Positions 4,472 through 44,307 of a stretch of 64,000 bases of DNA are shown piece after piece; position 1 is the stretch's first letter; each line of letters opens with the position of its first letter. The DNA comes from Acetobacter senegalensis. Its GTDB lineage: Bacteria > Pseudomonadota > Alphaproteobacteria > Acetobacterales > Acetobacteraceae. Both the position numbers and the translations under genes were made by a program. The stretch lies in contig NZ_LHZU01000133.1 of assembly GCF_001580995.1 (NCBI RefSeq), positions 1 through 64,000 of the forward strand, in the 5' to 3' direction. The notes below the pieces were generated by a model, which ran no database searches, was not told where the DNA came from, and saw only the letters and a list, made by a program, of their open reading frames with translations.

Positions 4472-5549
4472 CCTGATGGAACGCGATCTGACGGCATTGC
4501 CGACCGAGTCCGAGAAAGAACGGGCGCGTAAGCGCCTTCAGCACCTATGCCAGCGTGGTGCAGATTTTCTGGGGACCCAGTACGCCATTCTTGGCGGGGC
4601 GATGTCCTGGGTTAGTGAGCGTCATCTGGTTTCCGCCATTTCCAACGCTGGTGGCTTTGGGGTGATTGCCTGTGGCGCCATGGAACCGGACCGTCTGGCC
4701 GAAGAAATAGCGGCAACCCGTGCGCTGACGGACAAACCATTCGGCGTGAACCTGATCACCATGCACCCCCAGCTTTCCGAGTTGGTGGATGTGTGTTTGC
4801 AGGCAGGCGTTGGCCATATTGTGCTGGCTGGTGGTATTCCACCGGGGGCGGCCATCAAGGCCGCCAAGGATGGCGGTGCTAAGGTGGTGGCCTTTGCGCC
4901 TGCTCTGGTGCTGGCCAAACGGCTGATCAAAATGGGTGTAGATGCGCTGGTGATTGAAGGGGCGGAAGCTGGCGGTCATGTCGGCCCTGTTTCTCTGACG
5001 GTGCTCGCGCAGGAAATTCTGCCCCACATCGATCAGGTGCCGGTGTTTGTGGCTGGCGGGCTGGGGCGTGGGGACGCGCTGGTTTCCTATCTGGAACTGG
5101 GGGCTTCCGGCGGCCAGTTGGGCACCCGTTTTGCCGCTGCTGCGGAAAGTATTGCGCATGAAAAGTTCAAAAAAGCGTTTGTGCGGGCTAATGCGCGGGA
5201 TGCCATAACCTCTGTTCAGCTTGACGAACGTTTTCCCGTTATTCCGGTGCGGGGGCTGGCCAATGAAGGAAGCAGCCGTTTCGTGGCGCATCAGGCGGAT
5301 GTGATTAGTCGCTTTCAGAGTGGCTCGATCTCGCGTGAGGAAGCCCAGCTTGAGATCGAACATTTCTGGGCTGGCGCCCTACGTCGGGCTGTAATAGAGG
5401 GAGATGTTGAAAACGGATCTGTCATGGCCGGGCAGTCTGTCGGAATGGTGAAGGCCGTTCAGCCTGTGGCTGACATTATTGCGGACCTTGTTGATCAAGC
5501 TGTGCTGGCACTGGTGCGCCAGCAGCGACGTATGGATGCTGATGGCTGA
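4464..5549 (+). CDS. Nitronate monooxygenase / 2-nitropropane dioxygenase-like FMN protein
   Basis: A 361-residue TIM-barrel flavoprotein of the NMO/enoyl-ACP reductase II superfamily. Visible signatures are the N-terminal LGGAMSWVSERHLVSAISNAG, the GVNLITMHP strand, IEGAEAGGHVGP (FMN phosphate loop and catalytic His region) and FVAGGLGRG. Close relatives oxidise nitronates, or act as FabK-type enoyl reductases; FabI is encoded in this window, so a FabK role is less likely. The substrate cannot be decided from sequence. ATG 4464 overlaps the lysC stop, and its own stop overlaps the next gene. Confidence 0.8.
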   Translation: MSDLMERDLTALPTESEKERARKRLQHLCQRGADFLGTQYAILGGAMSWVSERHLVSAISNAGGFGVIACGAMEPDRLAEEIAATRALTDKPFGVNLITMHPQLSELVDVCLQAGVGHIVLAGGIPPGAAIKAAKDGGAKVVAFAPALVLAKRLIKMGVDALVIEGAEAGGHVGPVSLTVLAQEILPHIDQVPVFVAGGLGRGDALVSYLELGASGGQLGTRFAAAAESIAHEKFKKAFVRANARDAITSVQLDERFPVIPVRGLANEGSSRFVAHQADVISRFQSGSISREEAQLEIEHFWAGALRRAVIEGDVENGSVMAGQSVGMVKAVQPVADIIADLVDQAVLALVRQQRRMDADG

Positions 5550-7055: not shown

Positions 7056-8216
7056 ATGAGTGGCTACCGGCCTTACCAGTATATCGAGCGTCGGAAATCA
7101 CGGAAGATCCATGTCGGCAAGGTAGCCGTCGGTGGGGATGCGCCGATTTCTGTCCAGACCATGACCAACACCCTGACCAGTGATGCACAGGCCACGATCG
7201 AACAGATCCGCCGTGCAGAACTGGCTGGTGTGGATATCGTCCGCGTGTCCTGCCCGGACGAAGAAAGCACCAAGGCGCTTGAAGAAATTGTGCGGGAAGT
7301 GAACGTGCCCATCGTGGCGGACATTCACTTTCACTACAAGCGGGCCATTGAAGCGGCCAAGGCTGGTGCGGCCTGCCTGCGTATCAACCCCGGTAATATT
7401 GGCAACGCCGAGCGTGTGAAAGAAGTTGTCAATGCTGCCAAGGATTATGGCTGTTCCATCCGTATCGGTGTGAATGCCGGGTCTTTGGAAAAGCATCTGC
7501 TGGAAAAATACGGCGAGCCTAACCCGGAAGCACTGGTAGAAAGCGCTCTGGAACATGCCAAGATTCTGGAAGATCACGATTTCCGTGAATTCAAGATCAG
7601 CGTGAAGGCCTCTGATGTCTTCATGGCGGTGGCTGCCTACCAGCAGTTGGCTGATGCATGTGACTACCCGCTGCATATCGGTATCACGGAAGCTGGCAGC
7701 AAACGTGCCGGCACTGTCAAATCTTCCATTGGTCTGGGTAATCTGCTGTGGGCCGGTGTGGGTGATACCATGCGCGTTTCGCTCTCTGCCGCGCCGGAAG
7801 AAGAAGTGTTGGTCGGGTGGGATATTCTTAAATCCCTTGGCCTGCGTCACCGTGGCGTAAAGATTATTTCCTGCCCGTCCTGTGCCCGTCAGGGTTTCAA
7901 TGTGGTGGAAACGGTTCAGACGCTTGAAGATCGTCTGGCCCATATCAAAACTCCGCTGACGCTTTCCATTATCGGGTGCGTTGTGAACGGACCGGGTGAA
8001 GCCCTGATGACGGATCTGGGTGTAACGGGCGGTGGTTCAGGCCGTCATATGGTCTATTCCGCTGGCAAGCAGGACCATACTATTCCGGCTGGCGACATGA
8101 TTGAGCATGTGGTGGAGCTGGTGGAAGCCCGTGTGGCAGCCATTCAGGCCGAAGAAGCCAAGGAAAAGGCTGAAGGCAAGACGGAAGAACTGCCGGAAAT
8201 GTCTTCCGCTAAATAA
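7056..8216 (+). CDS. ispG: 4-hydroxy-3-methylbut-2-en-1-yl diphosphate synthase
   Basis: IspG (GcpE) is the [4Fe-4S] enzyme that reductively opens methylerythritol cyclodiphosphate in the MEP isoprenoid pathway. The 386-residue protein has the TIM-barrel start ([19 protein letters not shown]) and the C-terminal cluster-binding region with Cys273, Cys276 and Cys308 and a fourth ligand Glu315 (GPGE), the usual three-Cys-plus-Glu set. The Lys/Glu-rich tail after about residue 360 is variable. A strong terminator follows at 8230-8275, ending this unit before hisS. Confidence 0.96.
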
Positions 8217-13812: not shown

Positions 13813-14661
13813 ATGTCTTTCATTCAGGCTATTATCATAGCTATCCTGCAAGGGGCGACGGAACTGTTTCCGGTCAGCAGTCTGGGGCATGCGGTCATTT
13901 TGCCTGCACTGCTGCACTGGTCTTATGATCTGCATGATGAAGCGTTTCTGCCTTTTCTGGTGATGCTGCATCTCGGGACGTCCGTTGCGTTACTGATTTT
14001 CTTCTGGAAAGACTGGGCCGCCCTGTTCAAAGGCTCTGCAGGCCTGCTGGGAAGCAGGATCCAGATGGAAAGCATGCACATTCTGTTCCTGCTGGTTGTG
14101 GCCACTATTCCTGCCGTTATCATCGGCGGGCTGTTTGAACATATGTTGCGCAGCCTGTTCGGTTCAGCGTCTTCCGCTGCTATTTTCCTGTTTCTGAATG
14201 GCATTATGTTGCTATTGGCGGAAAAATTGCGGGGTATGGGCGGTCGTTATGGTGTGCGCACGGTAGCGGACATGACAATGCGGGACGCCCTAGTGATTGG
14301 CGTGTGCCAATGCATTGCCTTTCTGCCCGGTTTTTCCCGGTCTGGGGCGACCATCTGCGGTGGTTTGATCCGTGGTCTGCGGCATGACACAGCCGCGCGC
14401 TTTTCCTTTCTGATGGCTGAGCCAGTCATTATTGCCGCTACGGTAAGGGAAGCCTTCAAGATGCGGCATATGCCGTTGCAGCCTGGGCAGATGCACGTGG
14501 CATTGATTGCTGCCGTAATTTCGGGCGTGACGGCTTTGGCCAGCACAGCTTTCCTGATGCGTTATTTTCGCGACCATGATAGATGGGCGCTCTCTCCCTT
14601 TGCCTATTACTGCATTGGGGCAGGGCTTATCGCGACGCTGATTTTCCATTTCAGTGCCTGA
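13813..14661 (+). CDS. uppP: Undecaprenyl-diphosphate phosphatase
   Basis: UppP (BacA) removes a phosphate from undecaprenyl diphosphate to regenerate the lipid carrier for peptidoglycan and O-antigen synthesis. The 282-residue integral membrane protein carries both conserved motifs: GATELFPVSSLGHAVI near the N-terminus (catalytic Glu, Ser and His) and PGFSRSGATICGG around residue 175, with the catalytic Arg. The first motif reads SSLGH where SSSGH or SSTGH is usual. ATG 13813 gives the family length of about 280; the frame upstream to 13549 overlaps the opposite-strand mlaD and is not coding. Confidence 0.92.
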   Translation: MSFIQAIIIAILQGATELFPVSSLGHAVILPALLHWSYDLHDEAFLPFLVMLHLGTSVALLIFFWKDWAALFKGSAGLLGSRIQMESMHILFLLVVATIPAVIIGGLFEHMLRSLFGSASSAAIFLFLNGIMLLLAEKLRGMGGRYGVRTVADMTMRDALVIGVCQCIAFLPGFSRSGATICGGLIRGLRHDTAARFSFLMAEPVIIAATVREAFKMRHMPLQPGQMHVALIAAVISGVTALASTAFLMRYFRDHDRWALSPFAYYCIGAGLIATLIFHFSA

Positions 14662-14766
14662 AGCAAAGAGCGGCTTGCCGAGGACGCAGGCCTGATTCTA
14701 TTTGCATATTAGAGCCGGCTGCGTAACAAAAGCTGCTGGCGTGTGGTGGAGGTTATACAGGCTCTC

Positions 14767-16311
14767 ATGGGGTTTTCATCCTGCCCGGAAAAAGGGCGGT
14801 CTCGCCGTAAATCACTTGAGAGAATCGAGCAGGAAAATGGCGCTCAGCGGTTAAGCCGCACATTAGGCCCGCTTCAACTCACCATGTTGGGTGTAGGCTC
14901 CACTATTGGTGCTGGCATTTATGTGATGACGGGCACCGCCGCCGCCAATTATGCCGGGCCTTCCATTCTGCTTTCTTTTGTCGTCGCCGGATTGGCCTGT
15001 CTGTTTACGGCGCTGGCATATGGCGAACTGGCTTCAGCCATGCCGGTTTCCGGTTCTGCTTATACTTATGCCTATGTTTCCATGGGGGAAGCGTGGGCAT
15101 GGGGTGTGGGATGGTTGCTTCTGCTGGAATACGGCATTTCCTGCGCGGGCGTGGCTGCCGGATTTTCCGGCTACGCGGTAAGTTTCCTACAGGATTTCGG
15201 GATTCATGTTCCCTCGGCCTTAAGCACCACAACCATGCAGGTCGCGCTGGATGGAACGCAACGTCATGTTTCCGTGGCAGGTCGACTGGATGCGGTCGGC
15301 GCTGCATCCATTCTGGTTGTGACAGGCTTGCTGATTCTGGGGGTAAAGGAATCTCTGCGGATCAACACGGCCATTGTTTTCCTGAAAGTGGGCGTTCTGG
15401 CCGTTTTTGTGGGTCTTGGCGTATGGCAGATCCATCCCTCTTACTGGACGCCCTTTATCCCGCCGCATGAAGGGGGCTTCCGCTACGGATTGCCGGGAAT
15501 TTTTCGGGCAGCTTCTATTATTTTCTTTGCGTATGTTGGCTTTGAAGCTGTTTCTACGGCCTCATCGGAGGCCCGTAATCCGCGCAGGGATATTCCGGTA
15601 GGGATTATCCTGTCCCTGTTGATCTGCACGGCGGTTTATATTGTTGTGGCGGCCGTTCTGATTGGTGTGGTGCCATGGAAGACGCTGGATGTGGCTGATC
15701 CGTTGGCAATAGCGGTGAATGCCATGCATCAGCCCTGGCTGGCCGTTTTTGTGAAAATAGGGGCGGTGGTCGGCCTGTGCTCGGTTTTGTTCGGGCTACT
15801 TTATGCCCAAAGCCGTATCTTTTTTGCCATGGCGGAAGATGGCCTGCTGATGCCTGTCTTCAGCACATTGCATTCACGTTATAAAACACCCTGGATCGGC
15901 ACCATCGTGCTTGGTCTTCTGGTGGCTGTGGCCACGGCGACATTACCGATCGATATTATTGGCGATCTTGTAAGCCTTGGCACGGCTACGGCATTCGGCA
16001 TTGTGTGCTTTACCGTTATCTGGATACGCAATACTGCGCCGGATTTTCCGCGCTCTTTCAGCGTGCCCGGTGGCGGTTTTAGAATAAAAGGGATCTGGCT
16101 TGGCTATGTGCCCCTTTTAGGCATTCTATTCTGCCTGATTATGGCGGCTCCGCTCTTTATAGATATCATTATGGCCGTGTTTTCAGGAGATCCGGTACCG
16201 GCCGTTTTGCTGGCAGCTTATATTCTGTGTGGTTGGGCAAGCTACCGCTTTTACGGCCGGAGCCATTCTCGGCTAGGCAAGGATGCGGCCCTTACTGAAC
16301 CAGCACCCTAA
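14767..16311 (+). CDS. APC-family amino acid permease
   Basis: An inner-membrane amino acid transporter of about 514 residues with some twelve hydrophobic helices. The first helix has the APC signature LTMLGVGSTIGAGIYVMTGTAAA. Helix 6 contains the FFAYVGFEAVSTASSEARNPRRDIP segment, typical of the cationic amino acid transporter (CAT/YfnA) branch. The substrate is probably a basic or branched amino acid, not decidable here. The start is uncertain: ATG 14767 has GGAGG 14 bases away; GTG 14743 is in frame further up without a good site. Confidence 0.85.
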   Translation: MGFSSCPEKGRSRRKSLERIEQENGAQRLSRTLGPLQLTMLGVGSTIGAGIYVMTGTAAANYAGPSILLSFVVAGLACLFTALAYGELASAMPVSGSAYTYAYVSMGEAWAWGVGWLLLLEYGISCAGVAAGFSGYAVSFLQDFGIHVPSALSTTTMQVALDGTQRHVSVAGRLDAVGAASILVVTGLLILGVKESLRINTAIVFLKVGVLAVFVGLGVWQIHPSYWTPFIPPHEGGFRYGLPGIFRAASIIFFAYVGFEAVSTASSEARNPRRDIPVGIILSLLICTAVYIVVAAVLIGVVPWKTLDVADPLAIAVNAMHQPWLAVFVKIGAVVGLCSVLFGLLYAQSRIFFAMAEDGLLMPVFSTLHSRYKTPWIGTIVLGLLVAVATATLPIDIIGDLVSLGTATAFGIVCFTVIWIRNTAPDFPRSFSVPGGGFRIKGIWLGYVPLLGILFCLIMAAPLFIDIIMAVFSGDPVPAVLLAAYILCGWASYRFYGRSHSRLGKDAALTEPAP

Positions 16312-36231: not shown

Positions 36232-37005
36232 TTATTTTGTTGTGTAACCGCCGTTAACCAGAATGGTCTGTCCCGTCATCCACCATCCATCAGAAACCAG
36301 CGTGCGAACAAACGGCACGACATCTTCAATATCCGTCAGGCCGGTTTTGCTGAAAGGCGAAAGGGCCGCGGCGGATTTGTGATAGGCTACAGCGTCAGGC
36401 GCTTCCTGCCCGTAGAAAAACGGCGTATCCATGGGGCCAGGCCCAATGGCGTTTACGGAAATGCCACGTGCGCCAAATTCCTTGGACGCAGCACGGGTAA
36501 AGTGCTCCACCGAGGATTTTGAGCCTGCATAGGTAGAGTAAAAGGGCGTGTAGGCACCCAGAAGAGACGTCACAAGCGTGACGATCTTGCCGTTGTCCTT
36601 CAGGTGAAGGCCTGCTTCTTTCAGGAAGAAATAGGCAGCCTTCGTGTTGACGGCAAACATCTCGTCAAATTCAGCCTCAGTTGTCTCCGCAATCGGTTTT
36701 TTGAGAACTTTGCCAACGGTGTTGATAGCGATATCGGGCTTGCCAATCGCGGCAATAGTATCCGCAAACAGCTTTGTTGTTGCGGCTGCCGTTGTGAGAT
36801 CTGCCTGAAATGCTACGGCTTTGACGCCTGTCTGCGTTAACGTTGTCAGCGTTTTGTCAGCATCGGCTTTTGTGGCGGCACTATTATAATGAATAGCAAT
36901 GGCGCCTACACCATGGGCAGCCAGATCATGTGCAATCAAGGCACCAAGATTTTTGGCGCCTCCGGTGATGAGAACTGTTTTTCCGCGAAGAGAATGGTCA
37001 ACCAT
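36232..37005 (-). CDS. Short-chain dehydrogenase/reductase
   Basis: The 257-residue protein has the SDR cofactor loop VLITGGAKNLGALIA, the catalytic Ser in VTSLLGAYTP and Tyr-x3-Lys (STYAGSKSS). The NAVG-like segment reads INTVG. Substrate unknown. AGGAG lies 8 bases before ATG 37005, so I prefer that start. It is divergent from a LysR gene, a common arrangement in which the LysR protein controls the oxidoreductase. Confidence 0.85.
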   Translation of the reverse strand: MVDHSLRGKTVLITGGAKNLGALIAHDLAAHGVGAIAIHYNSAATKADADKTLTTLTQTGVKAVAFQADLTTAAATTKLFADTIAAIGKPDIAINTVGKVLKKPIAETTEAEFDEMFAVNTKAAYFFLKEAGLHLKDNGKIVTLVTSLLGAYTPFYSTYAGSKSSVEHFTRAASKEFGARGISVNAIGPGPMDTPFFYGQEAPDAVAYHKSAAALSPFSKTGLTDIEDVVPFVRTLVSDGWWMTGQTILVNGGYTTK

Positions 37006-37094
37006 AATGTATCTCCTGTTTTGTGCATGAGTGACAGCCACAAGACTGAGGGCAATAATATTGGTCGGCATTAGGCGAATAAATTTGTAATTTT

Positions 37095-37145: not shown

Positions 37146-38069
37146 ATGGATCGGATTGATCTGTTCCGGATTTTTACGCGCGTTGTGGAGACAGGAAGCT
37201 TCTCAAAGGCGGCAGATTTTCTGGGAATGCCCCGCTCCAGTGTCTCCACAGCCATTCAGATGCTGGAGCAACGGGTAGGGGTTCGGTTGCTGGCACGGAC
37301 GACGCGTTCGGTTTCCGCCACGCCTGACGGACAGGCCTTTTACGACCAGTGTGTAAGGCTGATCGTGGAGGTGGAGGATGTGGAAAATCTGTTCAGGCAG
37401 AATCACGTCAGCCCGCGTGGGTTATTGCGGGTCAACATGCCGGGGCGGATAGGGCGGCTTGTTGTGGCGCCTGCATTGCCTGAATTTCTTGATCGCTATC
37501 CGGATATCGATATTGAACTGGGCGTAACGGATCGGCCCATCAATCTGGTTGAAGATGGTGTGGATTGTGTTCTGCGTGTTGGGCCTTTGCAGGATTCCAG
37601 CCTGATCGCCCGTAAAATTGCGGAACTTCCGTTGGTGAATGTGGCCAGTCCTGCTTATCTGGCGCGGTATGGCTGCCCGATGGTGCCCGAAGATCTGATT
37701 CATCATAAAGAAGTGCATTATGCTTCTCCCGGCACCGGGCGCATGGAGGCATGGGAATGGGTGGACGAAGTTCACGGACTGCACAGACACGAAATGGCTG
37801 GGCGGGTAACAGTGAACAGTGCCGAAGCGTTGATTGCGTGCTGTCTGGCTGGCTTGGGCCTGATACAGGTGCCAGCCTATGATGTTAAGGCAGATTTGCA
37901 GGCGGGACGTCTGGTTGAAGTTTTGCCTGATTATCAGGCAGAGACCTTGCCGCTGGCACTGGTTTATCCTCACAGAAAACATCTTTCCCGCCGGATTCAG
38001 GTTTTTGCAGACTGGGTTGTCGATGTGTTGTCCCGGCATGGGGTTGAGAACAGGCATGACAAGTCTTGA
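37146..38069 (+). CDS. LysR family transcriptional regulator
   Basis: The 307-residue protein has the N-terminal winged helix-turn-helix (RIDLFRIFTRVVETGSFSKAAD, then SSVSTAIQMLEQRVGVRLLARTTR) and the effector domain (INMP-like start LRVNMPGRIGRLVVAP). It is most like the CbbR/yafC-type LysR group that regulates a divergent SDR gene. ATG 37146. Confidence 0.92.
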   Translation: MDRIDLFRIFTRVVETGSFSKAADFLGMPRSSVSTAIQMLEQRVGVRLLARTTRSVSATPDGQAFYDQCVRLIVEVEDVENLFRQNHVSPRGLLRVNMPGRIGRLVVAPALPEFLDRYPDIDIELGVTDRPINLVEDGVDCVLRVGPLQDSSLIARKIAELPLVNVASPAYLARYGCPMVPEDLIHHKEVHYASPGTGRMEAWEWVDEVHGLHRHEMAGRVTVNSAEALIACCLAGLGLIQVPAYDVKADLQAGRLVEVLPDYQAETLPLALVYPHRKHLSRRIQVFADWVVDVLSRHGVENRHDKS

Positions 38070-38172: not shown

Positions 38173-38460
38173 ATGAAGCAGATTTTCCAACGTACAATGC
38201 AGGCAGCGCTGATGGTGAGCACGCTTGGCATGCTGGCTGGTTGCCAGACACCACACCATGAAGATCGCTCAACACAGCGGGTGCGGCCGTTACGGATGCC
38301 TAATCCAGCCACGCTTTATTGCACCAAAAAAGGCGGCACGTTGACCGCCCAGCACGATGACCAGAAAGGGCAGGTAAATTTTTGCCATCTGCCGGACGGA
38401 ACCGTGATGGAAGAATGGGCACTGTTCCGTCGTGATAATCCGAAGCCGCCAGTTCAGTAA
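38173..38460 (+). CDS. DUF333 family lipoprotein
   Basis: A 95-residue protein with a lipoprotein signal (ALMVSTLGMLAGCQ; lipobox Cys at residue 24). The DUF333 core follows: NPATLYCTKKGGTL, then NFCHLPDGTVMEEWALFRR with two further Cys. Members are small secreted proteins; some are annotated as hemolysin-like but the function is not established. The gene ends at an inverted repeat (38476-38526) with no T run. Confidence 0.82.
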   Translation: MKQIFQRTMQAALMVSTLGMLAGCQTPHHEDRSTQRVRPLRMPNPATLYCTKKGGTLTAQHDDQKGQVNFCHLPDGTVMEEWALFRRDNPKPPVQ

Positions 38461-39011
38461 TCATTAGGTAGCAGAACAGTCCTGCAGCCATCTGACTTCG
38501 GGAGGGAGGATGATGGCAGGGACTGTGCAGAGCCGTGAGGCAAAGACTGTGCCAACCATTAGAGCGTATTTTAAAGCGCACATAAAAATCGCATAAGATA
38601 TATTATGCCAACTAAATGGTGGCGGAGGTGGATCCCGGTAGCGCTCCCGGCTTTAAATCTATGGTTTTGACTGCCTTTGCTCTGTGTTTGATATTTTCGG
38701 TTTCTGGCAGATTTCTCACAAAAACCGTTCTGCCAACCGTTGCTGCGGCTATCCACATCAGCAATGGGATCTATCTGCGGAACAACAGTAAAGGCTGTTT
38801 GGGTTGTGGGTGCTCCGTGGCAGGCTAAGGGATATATCACGAAAAAATAATGTGGTTTGTGTGGCGCGAGTTTAAATGTGCCTTGAGCCTTATGTATGGC
38901 TTGGATGCAAATTTCGCGTTCATTTTGTGTGGATTGTCCTTGAAGATGCTCGTTTTCGTGTGTAATTGAGGGCGGGCACGGCAATCAATGGCTTTTTTGG
39001 AAAGTGCTTTT
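38461..39011. other. Gene-free region between DUF333 gene and cysH, holding a dif-like site
   Basis: About 550 bases with no credible gene. A near-palindrome at 38586-38613 resembles Xer/dif sites (separate entry). A terminator-like hairpin (arms around 38476-38482 and 38521-38526) follows the DUF333 gene. The open frame 38616-38828 (70 residues, Cys- and Gly-rich end) has no family features. The last 170 bases before ATG 39012 should contain the cysH promoter. Confidence 0.55.
38586..38613. other. Putative dif-like Xer recombination site
   Basis: The 28 bases divide as a left arm AAATCGCATAA, a 6-base centre GATATA and a right arm TTATGCCAACT. The core CGCATAA, six bases, then TTATG matches the layout of bacterial dif sites (the E. 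coli arms end and begin with the same CGCATAA and TTATG), and the right arm is close to the B. subtilis XerD half. It is intergenic and symmetrical (GCATAA/TTATGC). Whether it is the chromosomal dif is not shown. Confidence 0.55.
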
Positions 39012-39698
39012 ATGTCTGTTGAACCACAGGTTCTCTCCATGCTGCGTGCAGAGGAAGATGACCCTGTCAAACTTTTGCGGTCAGCCTTTCGGCTTCTCAA
39101 AGACAGAATTGCGGTTCTCTCTTCCTTCGGTGCGGAATCTGCGTTGCTTCTTGCGCTTGTGGCGGAAGCAGCGCCTGATATGCCTGTGCTGTTTCTGGAA
39201 ACAGGAAAACATTTTCCCGAAACGCTGGCTTACCGTACCGAGTTGGCTCGCTTTTTGGGGCTGACTAATGTGCAGGACATAAAGCCTCAGAAAGCGGCGC
39301 TTGAAGCGCGAGACCCCACCGGAGAATTGTGGGCGTTTGACCCGGATGCTTGCTGTCAGTTGCGCAAGGTCGAACCGCTTGATGCGGCCTCCCTGCCCTA
39401 TGCTGTGTTGGTGACGGGCCGAAAGCGCGGTCAGGCGTCCACCCGCGCGGCACTACCTGTTGTTGAGGAAAAAGCCGATGGGCAGGTGCGGCTTAATCCT
39501 CTTGCAGCTTGGACGGGTGCAGAAATCACTGAGGAAATGGCACGGCGCGGCTTACCGCCTCATCCTTTGGTCGCCCAAGGTTATCCTTCCATTGGTTGTG
39601 CACCCTGCACGCATCCCGTGGGCGCAGGCCAAGATGCGCGTGCAGGACGCTGGGCCGGACTTTCTAAAACGGAATGCGGCATCCATACGGCAGGTTGA
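39012..39698 (+). CDS. cysH: Assimilatory adenylyl-sulfate (APS) reductase
   Basis: Reduces activated sulfate to sulfite using thioredoxin. The 228-residue protein has the N-terminal SSFGAESALLLALV, the double-Cys in CCQLRKVEPL and the C-terminal Cys pair in IGCAPCTHPV, then ECGIH with the catalytic Cys. The CC plus CxxC pair binds a [4Fe-4S] cluster and marks the APS type rather than the PAPS type. GGAAAG lies 7 bases before ATG 39012; ATG 38988 would add eight residues. It heads the sulfate assimilation gene run. Confidence 0.93.
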   Translation: MSVEPQVLSMLRAEEDDPVKLLRSAFRLLKDRIAVLSSFGAESALLLALVAEAAPDMPVLFLETGKHFPETLAYRTELARFLGLTNVQDIKPQKAALEARDPTGELWAFDPDACCQLRKVEPLDAASLPYAVLVTGRKRGQASTRAALPVVEEKADGQVRLNPLAAWTGAEITEEMARRGLPPHPLVAQGYPSIGCAPCTHPVGAGQDARAGRWAGLSKTECGIHTAG

Positions 39699-40582: not shown

Positions 40583-42463
40583 ATGAGCCAAAACGTTATT
40601 TCGTCTCAGGACGCGGCAACTCCTATTGTTATTGTGGGGCATGTTGACCACGGAAAATCGACCCTGATCGGCCGGTTGCTTCACGACACGGACAACCTTC
40701 AGGAAGGTAAGGTTGCCCAGATTATTGAGTCATCCAAAAAGCGCGGCCTGAAGATCGAGTGGAGCTTCCTGCTCGACTCTCTTCAGATTGAGCGTGACCA
40801 GGGTGTGACAGTTGATTCGACGCGCATTCCCTTCCTGCTGGGTGGGCGGGAATTTGTGATTGTGGATGCGCCCGGACACCGTCAGTTCCTGCGCAACATG
40901 ATTACGGGTGCCGCAGATGCAGAAGCCGCCGTTCTGGTGGTGGATGCTGCTGAAGGCGCGCGTGAGCAAACCCGTCGTCACGCCATGTTGCTGCATCTTA
41001 TTGGAATCCGGCATGTCATCGTGCTGCTGAACAAGGTCGATCTGCTTGATTTTGACCAGAAGAAGATTGAAGCAGTTGAACAGTCTGTTTCTGAACTTCT
41101 TGGCAAGCTTGATCTGGAAGCCGCGCTGTTCGTGCCTGCTTCTGCTCGTGACGGCGATAATATCGCCTCCCGTTCCGAGCGTATGCCGTGGTATGATGGA
41201 CCGACACTGACAGAGGCTCTGGCACAGGTTCCCTCACCTGCGTCACGTGCCAATCTGCCGCTACGTCTGCCGGTGCAGGACGTATATCGCTTTAACGACA
41301 AGCGCTATGTGGCCGGGCGTATCGAGCGTGGGCGTGTGCGCGTTGGTGATACGGTTATTATCGGAACGCAGAAGACCCCTGCGCGCATTGCATCCATTGA
41401 AAGCTGGCATACTGCACCGCAGGTTGCTGCTGTGGCGGGGCAGTCCATTGCTGTTACGCTGGAGCCGGATGTTATTCCAGACCGTGGCGATCTCCTCCAT
41501 CTGCAGGAAGAACCGCCGGTTGAGGCGTCCCGTATTCGGACGCGTTTGTTCTGGCTGCGTCAGGAGCCTCTCCGGGTTGGGGAAAGCTTCAAGCTGCGTT
41601 TGGCTACGGCAGAGCATGCTGTAACGGTTACGTCCATTGATTCCGTTCTGAATCTGGAAGATCTGACCGAACAGCCGGGTGAAGAAGTTCCCGCCGAAGG
41701 CTTCGCGGAAATCACGCTTTCTGCCTCGGAAAACGTGCAGTTTGATCCGTTTGTGCCGGGCACCGCAGATGGGCGCGGCGTGTTGGTTGACCGTCAGCAA
41801 CGTATTGTTGGTGGGGCACCGTTGATTGGTCCGGCTGCAATTGCGGCGGGTGAAAAAGTCATTCATCCAAGTGCCAGCACTGTTACCCTGCAGGACCGCG
41901 AACGGATCAAAGGGCATCGGGGTGCCGTGTTCTGGCTGACAGGGCTTTCGGGTGCCGGAAAAAGCACGTTGGCGCGCGGTGCGGAAGCTGCATTGTTTGC
42001 CGCCGGGCTGGATGTGACGGTGCTGGATGGGGATACGCTGCGCACAGGCCTGTGCAAGGATCTGGGGTTCTCGGAAGTGGACCGGACCGAAAACGTGAGG
42101 CGCGCGGCTGAAGTCGCCCGTATTCTGCGGGATGCTGGACAGGTTGTACTGGTCGCCCTGATTTCTCCTTTGCAGTCTGATCGGGCTCTTGCCCGGCAGA
42201 TCATTGGGGAAGGTTTTGAAGAAGTCTTTGTGGACGCTGATCTCTCCACGTGTGAACAGCGTGACCCTAAAGGACTGTATGCAGCAGCACGGTCTGGAAA
42301 GATCAGCGGTTTCACGGGGATTGATGCTCCCTATGAAGCACCTCAGGCTCCTGCCCTTCATCTGAAGACGGCCTCAGGCAGCGCGGAAAATGTTATAAAA
42401 ACGCTTGCGTCTTTCGTGAAAGACGCCACGGCGTTATCAGGTGCAGCACGCGCGCGTTCCTGA
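40583..42463 (+). CDS. cysNC: Bifunctional sulfate adenylyltransferase subunit 1 / APS kinase
   Basis: A 626-residue fusion. The N-terminal part (about residues 10-430) is the CysN GTPase: G1 [41 protein letters not shown]. The C-terminal part (from about residue 450) is the CysC APS kinase with P-loop [25 protein letters not shown] and the [10 protein letters not shown] segment. It drives APS formation by GTP hydrolysis and can make PAPS. Paired with cysD. Confidence 0.96.
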
Positions 42464-42489
42464 TCGAGTTTGTAAGACTTTTCCGCTTG

Positions 42490-42524
42490 AAACCCGGTTT
42501 CTGGCCTTTTCAGGAACCGGGTTT
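42490..42524 (+). terminator. Strong hairpin after cysNC
   Basis: A 14-base stem (AAACCCGGTTTCTG with CAGGAACCGGGTTT, one G-U pair) encloses a 7-base loop. Only the stem's own T run follows, so termination may be partial or Rho-dependent. Confidence 0.65.
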
Positions 42525-42652
42525 GGTGTGCGTTGAGGAAAGTGACATGGCTAATGTTTCGCCTCACCTGCTCCAGTGTTTGGCGCAGATCAAATGCTGC
42601 GATGTGAGCGTGCCAGTAGGGCCAGAGGCCCGTTCCTTGAAGTGCCATTGAC

Positions 42653-43507
42653 GTGATGAGGCAGACTTTTCTCACTTTTTTGCGGGGTGGTGATTCCGCC
42701 CTGCCCGGTTATCGGCTTTCCCTCGCGGCAACGCTGTTGTGGACCGGTTTTTTTATTGTCCTGCCGTTATGCGCACTTGCGATCCGTCCTTGGCAGGATG
42801 GCATGGGTGCCGTGGTGGGCGCTCTGCATGATACCCGCATGTTTGCCGCTCTCTGGACCAGTTTTTCCTCTGCGGCCTTGGCGGCGCTGTTCAACCTTCC
42901 GATTGGACTATTGCTTGCCTGGGCGTTGGTTCGGGGAGATCTGCCGGGGCGTAGAGTTGCTGATGCTTTGGTCGATTTGCCACTGGCGCTTCCTACGGCT
43001 GTATCCGGTATTACGTTGGCTACCCTTTACGGTCCGCAAGGTTGGCTTGGCGCCCCTTTAGCCAAGCTCGGTATCGTGGTGGCCTACAGTCGGCCCGGTA
43101 TTGTTCTGGCTCTTATGTTCGTAGGACTGCCTTTTGTGGTTCGTACAGTTGAACCTGTGTTGAAAAATCTTCCACGTGATCTGGAAGAAGCTGCGGTGCT
43201 GTTGGGCGCACGGCCCTGGCAGATTGTTCTCAGGGTGATTCTGGCGCCACTGCTTCCAGCCTTGATTACAGGGTTCGGGTTGGCGTTCGCTCGCGGCGTT
43301 GGAGAATATGGCTCCGTGATTTTTATTGCAGGCAACCAGCCTTTCCGGAGTGAAATCGCCCCCCTTCTGGTGGTGGTCAGGTTACAGGAGTTTGATTATC
43401 CCGGTGCAACAGCGATTGCCCTTGTTCTGTTGCTGACATCTCTGGCAGCCCTTGCTCTTGTGGGTGTGGTGCGGCGGAAGTTTTCTGCATGGGGAGATGC
43501 CGCGTGA
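42653..43507 (+). CDS. cysT: Sulfate ABC transporter permease CysT
   Basis: One of two permease subunits of the sulfate/thiosulfate importer (also called CysU). The 284-residue protein is hydrophobic, with the family segment PLALPTAVSGITLATLYGPQGWLG and the EAA loop LEEAAVLLGARPWQIVLRVILAPL, which contacts CysA. The start is uncertain (GTG 42653 or ATG 42656, no strong ribosome site). Confidence 0.92.
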   Translation: MMRQTFLTFLRGGDSALPGYRLSLAATLLWTGFFIVLPLCALAIRPWQDGMGAVVGALHDTRMFAALWTSFSSAALAALFNLPIGLLLAWALVRGDLPGRRVADALVDLPLALPTAVSGITLATLYGPQGWLGAPLAKLGIVVAYSRPGIVLALMFVGLPFVVRTVEPVLKNLPRDLEEAAVLLGARPWQIVLRVILAPLLPALITGFGLAFARGVGEYGSVIFIAGNQPFRSEIAPLLVVVRLQEFDYPGATAIALVLLLTSLAALALVGVVRRKFSAWGDAA

Positions 43508-44307
43508 AAACTTACATTCTGTGGGTGGTCTCATGGGCTGTCATAGCCATTGTTTTGCTGATGCCCCCGGCCGTTGTGGTAAGCGAAGCCCTGAAAAACG
43601 GGATAGGCCCAGCCCTTGAAACATTGAAAGATCCGGATGGTATTGCGGCTATCTGGTTGACGCTGGAAGTCAGTGTTGTTTCCGTGGCGGTCAACACGCT
43701 GTTTGGTGTGCTCGCGGCATGGTTGCTGACAAAATATCTCTTTCCGGGGCGTTCTGCCCTACTCGTCCTGGTGGAGCTTCCGCTCAGCATTTCTCCTGTG
43801 GTTTCCGGTCTGGTGTGGTTATTGCTGTTTGGAGCGCAAGGCTGGTGGGGACAGGCTCTTGAGCAGGCGGGTATTCACGTTGCCTTTGCCGTACCGGGCA
43901 TCATGCTGGCGACTTTGTTCGTGACGCTTCCATATGTGGTTCGCACTCTGGTGCCATTGATGGAGCAGCAGGGGCGTGATGCTGAGGAGGCCGCGATGCT
44001 GGCCGGAGCCGGATTCTGGCAAATTCTGTGGCGCGTTACTCTGCCGGGTGCTCGGGTGGCTCTATTTTCAGGTATTTTGCTGACAACAGCGCGTGCCATG
44101 GGGGAGTTTGGCGCAGTCTCAGTTGTTTCCGGGCATATCCCCGGTCTGACCGAGACCATGCCGTTGCATATTGAAAGTCTTTATAATGGGTACCAGACTG
44201 TGGCGGCTTTCACCATGGCAACGCTTCTTGCTGCTATGGCGATGAGCGCGGTTCTGCTGCGTTCCGTGCCGGAATGGATCACCCGCTGGCGGGAAAAACA
44301 GGCATGA
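43504..44307 (+). CDS. cysW: Sulfate ABC transporter permease CysW
   Basis: The partner permease, 267 residues from GTG 43504 (GTGA overlap with the cysT stop; GGGGAG 7 bases upstream). The family segment LPLSISPVVSGLVWLLLFGAQGW and the EAA loop AEEAAMLAGAGFWQILWRVTLPG are present, with FGAVSVVSGHIPGLTETMPLHIE toward the end. ATG 43489 would add five residues. The end overlaps cysA. Confidence 0.93.
   Translation: MKTYILWVVSWAVIAIVLLMPPAVVVSEALKNGIGPALETLKDPDGIAAIWLTLEVSVVSVAVNTLFGVLAAWLLTKYLFPGRSALLVLVELPLSISPVVSGLVWLLLFGAQGWWGQALEQAGIHVAFAVPGIMLATLFVTLPYVVRTLVPLMEQQGRDAEEAAMLAGAGFWQILWRVTLPGARVALFSGILLTTARAMGEFGAVSVVSGHIPGLTETMPLHIESLYNGYQTVAAFTMATLLAAMAMSAVLLRSVPEWITRWREKQA

Follow-up and report, generated by a model that had tools for sequence, protein, structure and literature searches.

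Genomic location and sequence of the site

The DNA analysed, hereafter the window, comprises bases 1 to 64,000 of a contig of 76,271 bases (C60) belonging to an assembly of 148 contigs and 3.93 Mb. A core similar to that of the element under study was present in 57 named loci, 40 of them with acetic-acid-bacterial titles, mostly of the genus Acetobacter, and the best-scoring of the 57 over positions 35–43 kb of the window was that of Acetobacter tropicalis LMG 19825, with pieces 79–94% identical. The source of the DNA is accordingly an Acetobacter, probably close to A. tropicalis. The element is located in a spacer between a gene encoding a DUF333 lipoprotein-like protein and the first gene of a sulfate-assimilation run. 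The features of the locus are the following:

37273–37280, plus strand: nearest KOPS on the left (GGGNAGGG), directed toward dif
38173–38460: DUF333 lipoprotein-like gene, left of the spacer
38461–38987: spacer containing dif, 527 bases, delimited by the flanking open frames
38586–38613, plus strand: dif site, 28 bp (11-6-11), AAATCGCATAAGATATATTATGCCAACT; assigned on its uniqueness, genus-wide presence and the KOPS switch
38586–38596, plus strand: left arm AAATCGCATAA, putative XerC box by analogy with the dif described in PMC2731167
38597–38602, plus strand: central hexamer GATATA, from the sequence and a stack of 31 sites
38603–38613, plus strand: right arm TTATGCCAACT, putative XerD box, from the sequence and the same stack
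38988–39698: gene with a PAPS-reductase domain, right of the spacer, first of the sulfate-assimilation run
39391–39398, minus strand: nearest KOPS on the right (GGGCAGGG), directed toward dif

The layout corresponds to that of dif, 28 bp with 11-bp arms around 6 bp and conserved inner arms. The left arm, centre and right arm reported in the preliminary description were found letter by letter at these positions of the plus strand. The same description placed the element in a gene-free stretch of 550 bases; 527 bases separate the flanking open frames, slightly fewer than described.

A weak dif-like match, CTCACAAAAACCGTTCTGCCAA, was observed about 100 bp to the right of dif, at 38715–38736, with 3 mismatches in 16 fixed bases; matches of this quality occur near chance level in the assembly. 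In addition, the AT skew was strongly negative in two 2-kb bins of the window, 14001–16000 (−0.26) and 42001–44000 (−0.28), where membrane-protein genes are perhaps responsible.

Uniqueness and conservation

The exact 28-mer was found once in the 3.93 Mb assembly, in accordance with one copy per chromosome and with the single genomic copy that had been proposed for verification. When the arms were fixed and the centre left free (16 fixed bases), one place matched without mismatches and one with a single mismatch. Up to 3 mismatches of the 16 gave 136 + 159 places against 123 + 123 for the reversed pattern, a number near chance level. No second copy of the 22-base core was detected in this assembly at up to 3 mismatches of 22.

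At the same threshold, the core was present in 46 of 49 Acetobacter genomes and the reversed pattern in none of the 49. The match was single in 43 genomes and multiple in three (G011, G015 and G021), and the core was not found at this threshold in the three others (G016, G020 and G036). At the family scale, 111 of 200 sampled Acetobacteraceae genomes had core matches, with one match for the reversed control; the unmatched genomes may have a dif that has diverged further, or may lack one.

An ungapped stack of 31 sites was prepared from the window and 30 of the 45 other matching Acetobacter genomes. The commonest base had a mean frequency of 0.93 inside the 28-mer, against 0.38 in the flanking sequence, a contrast inflated by the choice of the stacked sites by pattern. 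The central hexamer was GATATA, TATATA or GGTATA. The bases TTATGCCAA of the right arm were invariant in the 31 sites, partly through pattern selection, and G061 has TTATGCAAA. The most variable part was the outer left arm, besides the last bases of the right arm; variable outer ends of dif are also described by Carnoy and Roten (PMC2731167).

KOPS polarity around the site

KOPS are octamers that direct FtsK to dif. A switch of their orientation at dif is regarded as a structural hallmark in a recent survey (PMC13342612). In contig C60, the KOPS motif GGGNAGGG was found 12 times on the plus strand and never on the minus strand to the left of the site, and to the right, counting to position 76,271 and so past the window end, never on the plus strand and 15 times on the minus strand. 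The switch falls between 37276 and 39394 (Fisher p 6e-8). The same polarity was obtained from 20 of the 45 other site-bearing genomes, in flanks of 20 kb: the left flanks had 130 KOPS on the plus strand and 10 on the minus strand, and the right flanks 3 and 170, respectively. In all, 13 of these 313 KOPS were directed away from the site. The best split of the KOPS brackets the site in 19 of these 20 relatives and is off by 0.8 kb in G002. Likewise, the 40 Acetobacteraceae loci, obtained by dropping 17 with other titles and including many genomes of the previous set, gave 53/0 on the left and 2/80 on the right (plus/minus).

A de novo count over 21 contigs was carried out on 8-mers with at least 25 occurrences and a lean toward the site. 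The word GGGCAGGG ranked first among 12,241 pointing at the site (196 toward, 6 away); GGGAAGGG was fifth (65/3) and GGGGAGGG 31st (38/3), while GGGTAGGG was absent from the ranked list. When the fourth base was left free, GGGNAGGG was the first of 5,301 words (312 toward, 13 away). These KOPS counts are independent of the letters of the site itself.

On the basis of its uniqueness, its presence in 46 of 49 genomes and the KOPS switch at its position, the element at 38586–38613 is almost certainly the chromosomal dif of an Acetobacter probably related to A. tropicalis. This was one of the two readings of the preliminary description, which had left the terminus interpretation open. Chance similarity in an AT-rich spacer might be considered in view of the low G+C of the element, but with a sole full match in the assembly, a genus-wide presence, the KOPS switch and the 8-mer ranking its probability is negligible. 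The site itself is a known kind of chromosome part.

An opposite orientation of dif and KOPS in A. musti and Gluconacetobacter was considered and dropped, because convergent KOPS are identical on both strands and cannot define an orientation.

Xer and FtsK proteins

The assembly encodes an XerC-like protein, an XerD-like protein and an FtsK with a gamma domain, both Xer proteins scoring under the XerC and XerD cut-offs. For the XerD-like protein the better of the two Xer equivalogs was XerD, with 292 bits against an NCBIfam cut-off of 329.6, and the protein is above the cut-off of the tyrosine recombinase model PRK00283. The best equivalog of the XerC-like protein was XerC, with 288 bits against a cut-off of 335.15. 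The solved XerD structure 1a0p aligns with both proteins and is also the best solved relative of the XerC-like one. Five further, weaker matches to the XerD model occur in the assembly. The FtsK gamma domain gave one match, of 95 bits and above the Pfam cut-off, and shares the stretch GYNRAA-x2-IEQME with the solved FtsK 2j5p of E. coli.

Mobile elements and dif-like sites at other locations

Xer-using elements use dif-like sites, and the preliminary description left room for a target of such an element. In that case the sequence would be an attachment site or a relic, and not the dif of the host. Some Acetobacteraceae do have additional dif-like copies: these are found on plasmids and, in Gluconacetobacter, close to the main site as inverted pairs. 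The site of the window, on the other hand, has a single copy in the assembly and ordinary metabolic neighbours, is accompanied by the KOPS switch, and is present in nearly all Acetobacter genomes searched (46 of 49). No mobile genes were detected among the six neighbouring frames scanned between 34.7 and 42.5 kb, of which the short-chain-dehydrogenase-like frame at 36232–37071 was judged by eye only. The best phage match had E = 0.6 among the matches listed (20 of 32 records). Neither two flanking dif copies nor an adjacent element, as an IMEX site would have, was found. With no second copy in the assembly and no element among the frames scanned, a mobile origin is highly improbable and was dropped, and the sequence is treated below as the host dif.

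A plasmid search with a 40-bp region gave 41 records, with E values from 0.01 to 6 among the 40 listed; at least half were rhizobial and none was significant singly. Dif-like sites were observed on large plasmids of Kozakia baliensis (L175, 177 kb), Gluconobacter albidus (L176, 261 kb) and Komagataeibacter xylinus (L177, 191 kb), with blastn E values of 0.04, 6 and 2, respectively. The KOPS of these plasmids are few and mostly convergent (plus-minus on the left/right: 2-0/0-1, 3-1/1-3 and 2-0/1-5, in the same order), and similar convergent KOPS are described for large replicons elsewhere (PMC13342612).

Within Acetobacter, dif-like sites with altered centres (CATATC, TATATC or TCTTTA) were observed in G015 (C41:10845; L226, L078), G011 (C25 and C27; L223, L042) and G021 (C25; L224), on contigs of 16–26 kb. 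They may derive from large plasmids, although in G011 one of the two sites may be the dif of the chromosome.

Inverted pairs of dif-like sites, 1.7–3.2 kb apart, were observed in the genus g62, which also holds G178: at 7274/10472 in G109 (L219), 5687/7393 in G218 (L220) and 7230/9914 in G253 (L221). A Mg-chelatase-like frame (ComM/YifB type, judged by eye) lies between the two sites. All four KOPS found between the paired sites face the copy on the minus strand, so that this copy is probably dif, and the pair could be an Xer-invertible segment or a relic. Additionally, in another genus of the Acetobacteraceae, a contig of 1.41 Mb (G127:C3; L218) has an inverted pair of dif-like sites separated by just 97 bp, at 5177 (minus) and 5274 (plus).

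GC skew in relation to dif

The GC skew of C60 does not flip at the site, and no clean switch occurs before the contig end at 76,271. Its plus strand is G-rich at third positions up to the contig end, and the total GC skew falls to about −0.07 at 56–60 kb. The earlier remark on the lack of a clean switch in gene orientation was a fair one, and it extends to the GC skew. Of the 20 relatives, 14 have positive skew to the left and to the right of the site alike. Of the six others, five have positive skew to the left of dif and negative skew to the right, and in G028 the values are −0.002 and −0.035, respectively. GC skew alone was rejected as a test of the site, as it fails in this clade. In the window and in these 14 relatives, where the skew keeps its positive sign across the site, the KOPS polarity is therefore no by-product of skew.

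The chromosome-sized contigs of G018 and G032 were examined through 19 and 20 stretches of 20 kb, respectively. In both, the flips of GC skew and of KOPS coincide with the site or are no more than tens of kb from it, with a few discordant stretches elsewhere (for instance, G032 at 0.75 Mb). Dif is close to the GC-skew switch in these two genomes, while in the clade of the window the switch seems to lie away from dif. A distant skew switch combined with a better dif at that place had been named as evidence against the site: the distant switch seems to be true of this clade, but a better dif was not found in the assembly.

The offset was determined on two sampled chromosomes, G014 and G022, and on short flanks, taking the third-position strand skew (GC3) separately for the genes on each strand. 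KOPS flip at dif at 1.586 Mb in G014 and at 1.307 Mb in G022. In G014, GC3 was 0.163 just left of dif and 0.171 and 0.165 to the right, approximately 0 at 1.75–1.77 Mb and negative by 1.90 Mb, which places the skew switch about 165 kb off dif (bounds 84–314 kb). In G022, the mean GC3 was positive until 1.39 Mb and negative at 1.50 Mb, and the switch is 83–193 kb off dif; GC3 to the right of dif was about half to two thirds of that just left of it, and minus-strand genes showed almost none, which makes G022 the less convincing of the two.

Position of dnaA and hemE

The gene dnaA was sought in 38 genomes and was on the site-bearing contig in 20 and on another contig in 18, including the genome of the window. 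The distance from dnaA to dif was 69.6–74.2 kb in 17 of the 20 measurable genomes, G014, G022 and G029 among them, and 263 kb in G013, 371 kb in G032 and 505 kb in G018. All 12 skew-tested relatives with dnaA near 70 kb have positive skew to the right of dif, as do G035 and G069, with dnaA on another contig. As for the six remaining relatives, dnaA is at 263 kb in G013, and the contigs of the other five are long enough to exclude a position at 70–74 kb.

Hence, with dnaA 70–74 kb from dif and positive skew to the right of dif, dnaA appears to lie within the terminus region in these Acetobacter, and not at the skew-defined origin. The gene hemE, which adjoins the origin in Caulobacter, is far from dif; in the five contigs for which positions were computed, G018 and G032 included, it is closer to the opposite point. 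The points opposite hemE are at 1.747 Mb in G014 and at 1.399 Mb in G022, and the distance from dif to this point is 21 kb in G018, 75 kb in G032 and 290 kb in G029, which should show the largest offset.

A position of dnaA in the terminus region appears to conflict with two published Acetobacter maps. In A. pasteurianus 386B, oriC is placed near dnaA with dif opposite, and skew and AIMS octamers are said to agree (PMC3751514); in A. cerevisiae KSO5, whose chromosome has 3.26 Mb, oriC is placed beside dnaA and 51 kb from dif (PMC13209655). Origins assigned from dnaA in published Acetobacter maps may be incorrect. A statement that dnaA is remote from the origin in Acetobacter or Acetobacteraceae was not found in the titles and abstract starts searched, which cover the literature in part and include few subscription journals.

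Replication termination relative to dif

In this clade, the site seems not to be where strand composition puts the meeting of the forks, that point being further along the side of dnaA. Dif and the skew switch are strongly correlated across many genomes (PMC3025954), and an offset of this size would consequently be unusual, though not unprecedented, as offsets near 100 kb appear in Table 1 of PMC2731167.

Our somewhat favoured reading, from the two chromosomes, is that KOPS switch at dif while the replication-type skew switches about 85–190 kb away, near the point opposite hemE. If true, replication forks would regularly travel beyond dif to meet halfway, and selection would keep KOPS in step with dif. 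A chance meeting of the forks opposite the origin would be compatible with the skew offset. Fork traps are reported to be restricted to four bacterial clades (PMC6549158).

The main rival for the offset, although not for the site, is an old rearrangement that carried DNA of the left replichore across dif. Forks would then end at or near dif, KOPS having been re-selected quickly and the skew having yet to decay. GC skew changes slowly, and the genomes with the offset have one common arrangement, dnaA at 70–74 kb from dif, which could date to a single event; the reduced skew to the right of dif in G022, near zero in minus-strand genes, points in the same direction. However, strand skew in G014 is equally strong on both sides of dif, the flip is near the point opposite hemE in both sampled chromosomes, and the arrangement is common to 17 genomes, each another species in the collection, so that it is not recent. 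A rearrangement is accordingly considered possible but rather unlikely.

In this clade, the GC-skew switch seems to stand apart from dif and KOPS, which provides a natural experiment on whether replication terminates at dif or at any point where the forks meet, a question that has been argued from simulation (PMC3317982).

Proposed function

The site, its uniqueness and presence in the genus, the KOPS switch, the two Xer genes and the FtsK gene with its gamma domain were observed here; binding, loading, strand order and recombination follow the E. coli model. Sister chromosomes would be fused into a dimer by an uneven number of crossovers. By analogy with E. coli, FtsK at the division septum would load on KOPS, travel in their direction and reach dif from either side, where it would activate XerD and then XerC on the two 11-bp arms. 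The recombinases would then recombine two dif copies across the 6-bp centre, yielding two monomers. With dif placed with high confidence and a genus-wide consensus available, the site can serve as a landmark for Acetobacter genomes.

Comparison with known dif systems

One dif per chromosome is also reported for two members of the same genus, A. pasteurianus 386B (PMC3751514) and A. cerevisiae KSO5 (PMC13209655). The dif of strain 386B is given as a 32-bp sequence. The motif given for KSO5, GTTN6AAC, is unlike the element described here, and A. cerevisiae LMG 1625 carries CGCATAAGGTATATTATGCCAA.

Identities were computed against the dif sites in part of Table 1 of Carnoy and Roten (PMC2731167). 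The dif of Magnetospirillum was 16/28 identical and that of Bradyrhizobium japonicum 21/28. The dif of the circular chromosome of Agrobacterium tumefaciens C58 was 23/28 identical, including all of AATCGCATAAGATATATTATG, and is also intergenic; it differs at base 1 and in the outer half of the XerD arm (TTATGGAACTT, against TTATGCCAACT here), and lies 7 kb from the GC-skew extreme.

The dif of E. coli K-12 has the same 11-6-11 layout and was 19/28 identical, with the centre TGTATA instead of GATATA and the right arm TTATGTTAAAT instead of TTATGCCAACT. As in the window, the KOPS GGGNAGGG converge on dif, and the FtsK gamma domain has the stretch GYNRAA-x2-IEQME. The GC-skew switch of E. coli is 39 kb from dif (PMC2731167), whereas in the clade of the window it seems to lie further away.
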